Source: a virus | IMG/VR virus record: IMGVR_UViG_3300037882_000626 | Coordinates: 1-46,599 of that record | Length of the DNA: 46,599 bases | Direction: 5' to 3' (one strand) | In this document: positions 42,035 through 46,307 of the stretch, piece after piece | Numbering within the stretch: position 1 is the stretch's first letter | Layout of the letters: each line of letters starts with the position of its first letter | Made by a program: the position numbers and the translations under genes | The notes under the pieces: model-generated | Database searches by the model: none | What the model saw: the letters and a program-made list of their open reading frames with translations, nothing else | Told to the model about the DNA's origin: nothing

Positions 42035-42063
42035 ATTATAATTACTTTCAACATTTTCGGCAA
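42035..42063 (-). promoter_or_regulatory. Late leftward promoter
   Basis: On the minus strand, TTGCCG (42063-42058) is followed after 17 bases by a perfect TATAAT (42040-42035). Transcription should start near 42028, giving a leader of about 17 bases before terminase. The -10 is within the 16-bp repeat motif at 42036-42051, so a protein bound there would silence the late operon. Confidence 0.6.
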
Positions 42064-42281
42064 CAAAAATATAGTGTTGCAAAAATACTCGCTAGGTACA
42101 GCCCTAAATTTTACCGTTCAAACCGGAAGAGGAACGTTCACATTCAGGAAATTTTTGCCTATTTTTTGTGCATTAACTAAAATTAATTTGTTAAAAAATA
42201 GTCGTTTGAAAGTAATTATAAATCAATAATAGTAGAATGAAAGTAAATAGTAAAAAAACAAAACTAAATTATTCATTACGA

Positions 42282-42518
42282 TGACAGACTGAAACCGTCA
42301 CTAAACCGTCACTGAAACCGTCACCTAACTTTTATCCTTATATATCATATACTTATTTATTACGGTGACAGTATGACAGTTATTATTGATTATAAATGGA
42401 AAAGTGATGATTTAGAGGAGGTAGGGTAGGTTCATAAAAGATGCTATATGGAAAAGTCTGTCACTACCGCAACACTGTCACTAAATCATATGAGAATTGA
42501 ACTAAAGTTAGTGACAGT
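42282..42518. repeat. Repeat family B: CYGTCACTAA iteron-like boxes
   Basis: Three direct copies AAACCGTCACT begin at 42292, 42303 and 42315, only 11-12 bases apart. Others are inverted or variant: TGACAG at 42282, GTGACAGT at 42365, ATGACAGT at 42373, CTGTCACTA at 42458, ACTGTCACTAA at 42474-42484 and its inverted partner TTAGTGACAGT at 42508-42518. Helical-phase spacing is typical of iterons or operators. Confidence 0.75.
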
Positions 42519-42527
42519 TTCTATAAT
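42497..42527 (+). promoter_or_regulatory. Rightward promoter for the replication operon
   Basis: TTGAAC (42497-42502) and TATAAT (42522-42527) are separated by 19 bases. The -10 is perfect but the spacing is long. The inverted family B box (42508-42518) sits in the spacer, so binding would repress it. The transcript would carry the structured leader before the primase. Confidence 0.5.
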
Positions 42528-42675
42528 ATAGATTTTGCGTAAAATTATTTACTTTCATTTTATCTACGTAGAAGTAATTATTATTTACTTTCAATCATAA
42601 TTGAAATACTGCCTAAAAATTAATCAAACGCAGAAAATTGGTGACAACTAAATCCGTGAATTGCTTTCAATCTCC

Positions 42676-42769
42676 AACGTTCTTAGCGTTAGCATCTGGG
42701 GCTAGGCCGCGCAGCCGAAAATATGTTGCTGAGACATATGCCCCACCATCAGCTCAGTGCCTACTCAGC
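42676..42769 (+). ncRNA. Structured leader resembling c4/P4 CI antisense RNA
   Basis: A GC-richer segment folds well by eye. The stem GGGGC/GCCCC (42698-42702 with 42740-42744) closes around two hairpins: GGC/GCC (42705-42707, 42714-42716) and ATATGT/ACATAT (42721-42726, 42734-42739). An AACG/CGTT hairpin precedes it (42676-42690). The loop of the last hairpin, TGCTGAG, can pair with CTCAGC at 42764-42769, 10 bases before the primase start. The layout matches P1 c4 and P4 CI RNAs, which repress downstream genes by such pairing. Identity with a known RNA family is not established. Confidence 0.5.
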
Positions 42770-42778
42770 GGGTCGATA

Positions 42779-44878
42779 ATGAATGAAAATGAATTTTATA
42801 ATGCCGTTACGGCGCAAGGGTTTAATTGCGGCAAGGTCGTGGCCGATGGGAAATTTCACCGATTCGATGTCGTTAAAGGCGATAAGGCTGGTTATTACAA
42901 ACTCACACCGGACGGTTTTGGCGTATACGGCAACTGGAAAACAGGCGAACAGTTCAAATTCTTTGCAGGGCGCACTGAAAATTTAACAGAAAAAGAACGC
43001 CAAGACCTTAAAGCCGCATATAAGGCACAACAACGCGCCGCCAAAGAGAAGATTGAAAACGATAACGCCAAGGCCGCAAACGAAGCTAGGCGTATCTGGG
43101 ATGCTGCAAACGAAGCCACAAGCCATCCCTACCTAGAAAAAAAGCAAATCGCGCCACACGGGCTTAAAATTGATGATAAGGGTAATTTGCTTATTCCAAT
43201 TTATGAAGGCGAGAAATTAGTTAATTTACAAAGAATTGATAAAAACGGCAAAAAGCTATTCGTTTACGGTGCAAAAAAACGCGGCTGTTATTCTTTAATC
43301 GCAGGAACACAAGGCGTTATTTTTATTTGTGAGGGGTTTGCCACGGGGGCAAGCGTAAACGAAGCCACGGGGGCAATGTGCATCGTTGCGCTAGATGCTG
43401 GCAATCTGTTGCCTGTAGCTAAGGCTATTCGGAATAAATACGGCTTAGGTCAAAAGATAATAATAGCTGCCGATAACGACCAGTGGACTGTAATTAAAGA
43501 TGAAACAATAAACGTAGGTATCAAGGCCGCAAATGAAACATCCTATGCAATCGGTTGCGAAGTAAAATTCCCGAAATTTCATAATGATGATGCCGATAAA
43601 AGAACCGATTGGAATGATTGGGCAAGCGGCTTTGGCTTGCAATCCGTCAAAGATGAATTAATGCCGCATGAAACTGCGCTCATGGTTGCCGAAAAAAAAT
43701 CTATGCCGGATATAATGCCGGAATTAATTTTAAACGAAAACGGAAAGCCAAAATGTATTATTGATAATTTAAAAAACCTGTGTGACATGCACGGTATTAT
43801 TTTGCGTTATAACGTCATAAAAAAAAGTGAGGAGATTTTAATACCGAATGAATTTTACAGTTTAGATAACAGCCTCAATGCAAGCTACGCTCATGTGCTT
43901 TCTTTGTGTGAGATTAACGACATGAGCACAAAGCACATTGGAGATTATATGACCAACATTGCCGATAAAACGCCATACAATCCTGTTGCTACGTGGATTG
44001 AATCCGCACCGTGGGATGGCGTAAGTCGATTGGATGAATTTTATGCCACAGTGAAATGTACGAATGAGCCGTTACGCGATATTATTTTAAAAAAATGGAT
44101 GATTAGCGCAATCGCAGCGGCGTTTTCGCCATACGGCATATCCGCGCATGGTGTTTTGGTATTTCAAGGCCAGCAGTATTTAGGCAAAACGTCATGGTTT
44201 AAAAGCCTAGTGCCAAAAGAATTAGAGGCGATTAAAGATGGTTATATTTTGCGTTTGGATGATAAAGACAGCGTCTTTCAATGCCTATCACACTGGATGG
44301 TAGAACTTGGTGAATTAGAAGCCACGTTTAAAAAATCTGATATTGCCCAGCTTAAAGCGTTCATCACAAGCGATAAAGATATTTTACGTCGCCCTTATGC
44401 CAGAAAAGAAAGCGTTTACCCACGCCGCACGATATTTTTTGCATCCGTAAATCAGAAAGAATTTTTATTCGATGAAACAGGTAATCGGCGGTTTTGGGCA
44501 ATTGAAGCACTGGCCTTGAATTATAACCACGGCCTGAATATGCAGCAGATTTGGGCGGAATTTAAAGTGTTATATGATTGTGGTGAAAACTGGATTATGA
44601 GCTTTGAAGAAAACGAACTCATAAACACAAGCAATGAAGAATTTACGGGCGCGGATTTTCATGACGAGTTGGTTGCCAGTAAATTCAACTGGAACGATTA
44701 CAGTATGTTTGATGATGTATGGAAAACCGTCACCGAAGTTGCATTATTTTTAGGAATACAGAATCCGAAACAACAGGATTTAAACCGCGTCGCCAAAGCT
44801 GTGAAAAAGTATAACGGCGATAAGTCAAAACGTGGGGCTGGGGGCGTGAGATTAGTTTGCGTACCGTGGCGTGATTGA
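42779..44878 (+). CDS. Toprim-VapE primase-helicase
   Basis: This encodes 699 residues. An N-terminal region is followed by a toprim-like domain (EGFATG at 185-190, DAGN at 206-209, ADND at 231-234) and a C-terminal VapE/virulence-associated E ATPase domain with Walker A GQQYLGKT (464-471) and MVELGELE (507-514). It would prime and unwind DNA at the neighbouring repeats. The frame is open back to TTG 42638, but those extra codons run through the structured leader, so ATG 42779 is preferred. Confidence 0.88.
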   Translation: MNENEFYNAVTAQGFNCGKVVADGKFHRFDVVKGDKAGYYKLTPDGFGVYGNWKTGEQFKFFAGRTENLTEKERQDLKAAYKAQQRAAKEKIENDNAKAANEARRIWDAANEATSHPYLEKKQIAPHGLKIDDKGNLLIPIYEGEKLVNLQRIDKNGKKLFVYGAKKRGCYSLIAGTQGVIFICEGFATGASVNEATGAMCIVALDAGNLLPVAKAIRNKYGLGQKIIIAADNDQWTVIKDETINVGIKAANETSYAIGCEVKFPKFHNDDADKRTDWNDWASGFGLQSVKDELMPHETALMVAEKKSMPDIMPELILNENGKPKCIIDNLKNLCDMHGIILRYNVIKKSEEILIPNEFYSLDNSLNASYAHVLSLCEINDMSTKHIGDYMTNIADKTPYNPVATWIESAPWDGVSRLDEFYATVKCTNEPLRDIILKKWMISAIAAAFSPYGISAHGVLVFQGQQYLGKTSWFKSLVPKELEAIKDGYILRLDDKDSVFQCLSHWMVELGELEATFKKSDIAQLKAFITSDKDILRRPYARKESVYPRRTIFFASVNQKEFLFDETGNRRFWAIEALALNYNHGLNMQQIWAEFKVLYDCGENWIMSFEENELINTSNEEFTGADFHDELVASKFNWNDYSMFDDVWKTVTEVALFLGIQNPKQQDLNRVAKAVKKYNGDKSKRGAGGVRLVCVPWRD

Positions 44879-46307
44879 GTTACGCGATTATCAGCATGAA
44901 TTGATTGCAGATACCCGTGCAAGCCTTGCCGTGCATAACAGCACGGTTATGCAGCTTGCGACGGGCGGGGGGAAAACACTAACGACAGGATATATTGTAA
45001 AATCAGCAATCGAAAAAGGGCGACGTGCGATATTTTGCGTTCACCGAATTGAACTGGTTAATCAAACGAGCGCGGCGTTTAATAAGTTAGATATTCCGCA
45101 TGGATTTATTACCGCGCAAGATGATTATGATAGTTCAAAATTGGTTCACATTGCCAGCATAGACACGTTACGCCGCAGATTAGATGACGTTATCCAGCCT
45201 GATTTACTGATTATTGACGAAGCCCACCGCGCCATGGCTGAAACGTGGCAGAAAGTAATCAACCACTGGCCGAATGCTAAGAAGTTATTGATTACAGCAA
45301 CGCCCGAACGTCTTGACGGGAAAGGCTTGAAACACGTAGCGCAGGATTTAGTTTTAGGAAAATCTACGCGATGGTTGATTGACCACGGATACTTGACCAT
45401 GCCGCGTTCGTTCGCGCCAAGTGAGCCGGATTTGACGGGCGTGAAAACAACGGCGGGTGATTATAAAATAGATGACCTTGCGATGGTCATGGATAACAGT
45501 TCCATCACTGGCAACGCTGTCACGCATTACAAAAAGCACTGCGATAATATGCAAGCTATTGTTTTTGCCGTTACGATTGAACACTCAAAAAATGTCGTTA
45601 AAGAATTTTTAGATAATGGCATACCTGCAGCGCACTGCGATGGTTCATTTAGTAAAATACAGCGCGAAGATATTATCGAGCGTTACAGATACGGCGAAAC
45701 GAAGGTCTTAAGCAACGTAAATTTGTTCACGGAAGGGTTTGACGTTCCGAATGTACAGGCGGCTATACTGTTACGCCCCACAAAATCACTGGCCATGTAT
45801 TTGCAAATGGGTGGACGTGCATTGCGTCCAGTCTATGCCGATGGATATGACATACAAAATCAGCAAGGTAGATTAGATGCGATTGCTAATGGCCATAAAC
45901 CATTCGCAATAATACTTGACCACGCTGGGAACACTAAGCGGCATGGGTTATTGCACATTGAGCGCTCATGGTCACTAGAAGGAAAAAAAGGGCGGCCTAA
46001 ATCCAAGATTGTAAACTCAACCTGCGAAGTTTGTTTCTGCACATGGGAACGCAAGCCGAATAAGCCGATTGCTTGCCCTGCATGTGGATGGATGCCAGAG
46101 AAAAAAGAGAAAGAAGGTGCAGAATACGTAGAGGGTGATTTGCAAGAAATTACTGAACAAAATAATCCATGGGCATGGGCAAAAACATCATCACTCACCA
46201 AGGTTATGTCACACGTTAAAACCAGAAAAGATTTACAAGATATAGCCAAGGCACGCGGCTATAAACATGGCTGGGTTTTTTATAAAGCGAAGGAGCTAGG
46301 CTTATGA
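44871..46307 (+). CDS. DEAD/DEAH-box helicase with zinc ribbon
   Basis: This encodes 478 residues from GTG 44871, overlapping the primase stop by 8 bases. The start LRDYQHELIADTR is the Q-like motif; Walker A is TGGGKT (31-36), DEAH follows (IIDEAHRA), then TATPERLDG, and the motif VI region contains YLQMGGRALRP. A zinc ribbon (CEVC and CPAC) lies near residues 385-405. It is like the Res/SSL2 type in phage replication modules. No nuclease domain is seen. Confidence 0.88.
   Translation: MIELRDYQHELIADTRASLAVHNSTVMQLATGGGKTLTTGYIVKSAIEKGRRAIFCVHRIELVNQTSAAFNKLDIPHGFITAQDDYDSSKLVHIASIDTLRRRLDDVIQPDLLIIDEAHRAMAETWQKVINHWPNAKKLLITATPERLDGKGLKHVAQDLVLGKSTRWLIDHGYLTMPRSFAPSEPDLTGVKTTAGDYKIDDLAMVMDNSSITGNAVTHYKKHCDNMQAIVFAVTIEHSKNVVKEFLDNGIPAAHCDGSFSKIQREDIIERYRYGETKVLSNVNLFTEGFDVPNVQAAILLRPTKSLAMYLQMGGRALRPVYADGYDIQNQQGRLDAIANGHKPFAIILDHAGNTKRHGLLHIERSWSLEGKKGRPKSKIVNSTCEVCFCTWERKPNKPIACPACGWMPEKKEKEGAEYVEGDLQEITEQNNPWAWAKTSSLTKVMSHVKTRKDLQDIAKARGYKHGWVFYKAKELGL

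Follow-up and report, generated by a model that had tools for sequence, protein, structure and literature searches.

The primase leader of this phage, known from an IMG/VR contig with contractile-tail genes (here the window, the whole stretch of 46,599 nucleotides analyzed), contains a small structured RNA that resembles the int-alpA family (RF02996). This RNA probably acts on the leader in which it lies: the loop of one hairpin would pair with two short repeats before the start codon, block ribosome entry, and restrain translation of the primase. It forms the last part of an A+T-rich gap of ~770 bases, with leftward terminase genes on one side and the rightward primase and helicase genes on the other. 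The features of the locus are listed below, the parts of the core being those of the MFE fold.

42697..42745, + strand: core of the candidate int-alpA-type RNA
42697-42702/42740-42745, + strand: closing stem P1, UGGGGC/GCCCCA
42703-42704, + strand: UA joint
42705-42716, + strand: hairpin 1, stem GGC/GCC
42717-42720, + strand: GAAA joint
42721-42739, + strand: hairpin 2, stem AUAUGUU/GACAUAU, apex UGCUGAG
42727..42733, + strand: apical loop of hairpin 2, UGCUGAG, a putative antisense element with complements in R1 and R2
42753..42757, + strand: putative target repeat R1, CTCAG, 7 nt beyond P1
42764..42769, + strand: putative target repeat R2, CTCAGC, with GGGT directly after it; lies beside the ribosome entry site or partly within it
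42779..44878, + strand: Toprim/VapE-type primase-helicase, the presumed controlled gene (Pfam VapE-like, 2.9e-54, and Toprim_3; PHROG 2249, DNA primase)
44871..46307, + strand: DEAD-type helicase (Pfam ResIII/Helicase_C), overlapping the primase end by 8 nt and probably in one operon with it

The original prediction placed a closed multi-hairpin structure at 42655-42778, within a GC-richer island. GC content does rise, from 0.23-0.31 upstream to about 0.50 across 42625-42849, but there is no island on the right side, where the primase gene also lies at 0.43-0.51. Similarly, the two-hairpin core folds well (42695-42746, -18.8 kcal/mol, z -2.2, with 6 of 200 shuffles equally stable), whereas the whole interval of 124 nt is no more stable than its shuffles (z +1.3); the structured part is thus limited to about 42697-42745. 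The divergent intergenic gap also contains (42281-42335 and 42460-42520) four ACCGTCACTAAA-like 12-mers together with inverted GTGACAG sequences, possibly operators or an origin. In addition, TTACTTTCA elements are repeated in both orientations over 42039-42672, the last of them (TTGCTTTCAATC at 42661) some 25 nt before the RNA, and may be a phage-specific promoter or operator.

Among 4,227 Rfam models, int-alpA was the best on the window, with a full-length alignment (1-71) scoring 20.8 bits (E 0.088 for 701 bases against all families), under the gathering cut-off of 35.8. Our own covariance model, R1, built from 42 int-alpA elements with the window excluded, ranked the site first in the window (17.1 bits, E 0.018; next site, E 0.96). 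The RNA has the int-alpA layout of closing stem, UA, hairpin 1, GAAA, and hairpin 2, in consensus order both in the alignment and in the MFE fold, and the conserved junction letters CUAG and CGAAA are present (GGCTAGGCCG...GCCGAAAA at 42700-42721). The block GGCTAGGCCG..CAGCCGAAA is near-identical in the int-alpA elements of two other contigs (L053 and L121). Unlike int-alpA, however, hairpin 1 has only 3 pairs, and hairpin 2 is A+T-rich and joined straight to the closing stem. The loop does not complement a Shine-Dalgarno sequence. After the closing stem no U-run was found, and before the RNA no convincing promoter (TAGCAT, 1 nt before the stem, is a 4/6 match). The name-giving context, between integrase and alpA genes, is also different, since the RNA stands before a primase, but bona fide int-alpA members elsewhere precede unrelated genes as well. 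Given these results, we regard the element, from its sequence, as a diverged int-alpA-type RNA, without claiming formal RF02996 membership.

The complementarity of the loop TGCTGAG to CTCAGC before the primase, already noted in the original prediction, was confirmed at 42764-42769, and a second complement at 42753-42757 had been overlooked. The exact matches are of 6 nt at R2 and 5 nt at R1. The two repeats are spaced 11 nt apart (family 5-95% range, 9-21.5), R2 starts 15 nt before the ATG, and the 3' end of the core (42745) is separated by 33 nt from the ATG at 42779. The window R2 is a poor Shine-Dalgarno sequence, with GGGU only, adjoining it.

Loci around relatives of the window primase were scanned in two sets with our own int-alpA model. 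In the 80-locus set, 13 loci gave hits with E <0.01, and in the other set L003 did. In L003, L004 (near-identical to L003), L456, L457, L462, L471, L479, L484, L491, and L499, the distance from the RNA to the primase ATG is 31-41 nt; counting L461, where the arrangement is equal but the primase frame is broken, this makes 11 phage contigs. In L459, L460, L472, L478, L506, and L512, the RNA hit precedes a gene other than the primase. The primase of L457 aligns with that of the window from residue 4 (31% identity), so that in both the RNA stands before a homologous gene start. Within the primase set, loops scored 11.4 against the repeats of their own leaders and 8.0 when swapped, and none of 1000 permutations was as high; the window loop reaches 11 with its own leader, as against 6-7 with the other primase leaders. 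No such RNA was found in the scan of L441, the closest primase relative found (65% in the C-terminal part), or at the scanned loci of the isolated-phage relatives FoX1, Mano, Arya, and PPpW-3, which gave no matching Rfam RNA; in most isolated-phage relatives the primase overlaps or closely trails the upstream gene. The element was not found in the scanned loci of the terminase siblings either, and blastn of the RNA region against phages gave no match.

The correspondence between loop and repeats, which we derived in the present analysis and which the window RNA follows, holds for int-alpA RNAs at large. The genome set consisted of 82 members, drawn from 398 Pseudomonadota genomes (50 with int-alpA over the cut-off), and the viral set of 138 unique members on viral contigs, collected by three DNA patterns; seven pattern-found viral loci rescored with Rfam each had an element over the int-alpA cut-off. 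There are 97 distinct loops among the 138 viral members, and the loop matches two repeats before the start codon in 85% of them, vs 20% for swapped pairs. The mean loop/repeat score was 10.6 for own and 7.5 +/- 0.11 for swapped pairs in the viral set, where the excess persists after leaving out Shine-Dalgarno-like loops, and 10.27 vs 8.14 +/- 0.17 in the genome set. The geometry is also shared: repeat 1 lies ~8 nt past the closing stem (the median offset), and repeat 2 ~14 nt further, ~11 nt before the ATG. The compensatory changes expected in homologues under the original prediction are there, with stems covarying strongly (0.718 vs 0.197 in shuffles) and loops covarying with their own repeats. 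A -10 box is found within 16 nt upstream in 48% of members (background, 1.5%), mostly ending 6-7 nt before the stem; hence, transcription is expected to start where the stem does. A U-rich, terminator-like stretch follows the stem in 24% of members, vs 4% in the background. Placement of R2 in the loop of a hairpin of its own was not convincing as a further feature (93% of members vs 84% with shuffled flanks).

The 131 proteins encoded downstream of int-alpA RNAs fall into 122 clusters, and many are of the HNH, endonuclease VII, GIY-YIG, Rha, or Bro-N/KilA-N types. In cultured phages, the elements stand before small inserted genes, as in Edwardsiella phage GF-2, where the inserted gene lies among head genes, and in a Rhizobium phage, where the gene codes for a Seg-like endonuclease; Enterobacter phage Tyrion is another cultured carrier of an int-alpA RNA. 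We dropped the idea that the RNAs serve as free-standing guides for HNH nucleases, since nucleases are a minority among the downstream genes and the loop is directed at the leader to which it belongs. Some contigs carry two or three int-alpA elements in tandem (L077:1201-1944 and L091), in L077 with an own gene after each, resembling tandem cassettes; in another case (L161:2653-2735), a Proteo-phage-1 RNA (69 bits) shares its contig with an int-alpA RNA. We found no description of a mechanism for int-alpA RNAs in the literature searched.

We propose that the leader RNA of the window folds into the closed stem with two hairpins, as its sequence and the covariation in relatives show, and that the loop of hairpin 2 pairs with R1 and R2, to which it is visibly complementary. 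Pairing with R2 would shut the ribosome entry site and hold the primase, and perhaps the coupled helicase, at a low level. The antisense RNAs of P4 and P1 have two targets each, and by likeness to them R1 may be a second docking site. The RNA could act in cis by forming a pseudoknot within the leader, or in trans if the same leader gives rise to a small RNA. We lean slightly to a free small RNA, since promoters in the family would place the 5' end of the RNA on the first base of the stem and terminator-like U-runs follow the stem in a minority of members.

A purely cis-acting leader, in which a pseudoknot of the loop with R1 or R2 is shifted by a signal (protein, ligand, temperature, or replication state) and no free small RNA is made, is a serious possibility, if not the one we expect. 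It would agree with an element that immediately precedes a single gene and is oriented like it, with loops that each fit their own downstream gene and have no shared target, and with the great diversity of the genes downstream; however, a simple pseudoknot has no need of two equal targets, and the excess of terminator-like U-runs suggests a free RNA in some members. A different proposal is that a processed RNA, as in P1 and P4, silences superinfecting relatives of like loop type in trans. The many loop types covarying with their targets do look like immunity groups, and in P4 an antisense RNA holds back the alpha primase operon. Nevertheless, we consider such an immunity function rather unlikely, as there is no integrase among the window protein-family matches listed and many members control nucleases or accessory genes instead of lysis or replication genes.

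Less probable still, by a wide measure, is that the int-alpA likeness is an accident of a functionless fold. The scores are below threshold and the E value of model R1 is only 0.018, but two independent signals coincide: when the whole window was dinucleotide-shuffled 3,000 times, 4 shuffles gave a structure that scored equally and had the conserved junction letters, and when the 35 nt past the core were shuffled 20,000 times, 61 shuffles gave both loop complements at once. (For equal-score structure, junction letters, and a loop-complement sum of at least 11, the count was 29 in 3,000 whole-window dinucleotide shuffles.) Moreover, the site is placed relative to a homologous gene as in the eleven phage contigs. 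As for a true C4/P4 CI antisense RNA (RF01695), to which the original prediction likened the element, we give it almost no credence. The outline is alike, with a closing stem round two hairpins and two targets, but the C4 covariance model gave no window hit even with E values up to 10 allowed, while it scored 74.9 bits on the P4 control, and no c4-a1b1 target element was found in the window either (P4 control, 44.1 bits). Protein code in the reading frame at 42638 was likewise rejected, the frame not being conserved and related primases beginning at the 42779 ATG.

Part of the original prediction nonetheless stands. As in C4/P4 CI, whose targets are c4-a1b1 elements, a structured leader RNA is antisense to two leader targets and lies before a replication or antirepressor gene, here a VapE-type primase as in P4. 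It differs in its conserved letters, in having both targets downstream, and in the position of R2 at the ribosome entry site. The best reading is that the window RNA is like C4/CI in kind of control, not in family. Another point of comparison is provided by the T4-type homing endonucleases I-TevI, segB, and mobE, in which an RNA hairpin directly hides the ribosome-binding site (PMC2988022). There too an RNA structure limits translation of mobile phage genes, but the window and int-alpA RNAs use a distinct loop that matches a pair of repeats, in a cassette that can pass from one gene to an unrelated one.

On balance, we favor the view that int-alpA RNAs form a large class of antisense control cassettes, each directed at its own leader, with loop/target pairs that diversify freely. 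In this view the cassettes have been carried between phage genes (for nucleases, accessory and antirepressor-like proteins, and VapE primases) and give each gene a private RNA lock. The window RNA suggests that RNA can hold back a phage replication primase in a second way, other than that of P4 CI. The broader rule for the family is worth more than the single window site: int-alpA is widespread, and the match between loop and repeats offers a concrete, testable handle on the function of an orphan RNA family and suggests how inserted phage genes stay quiet.
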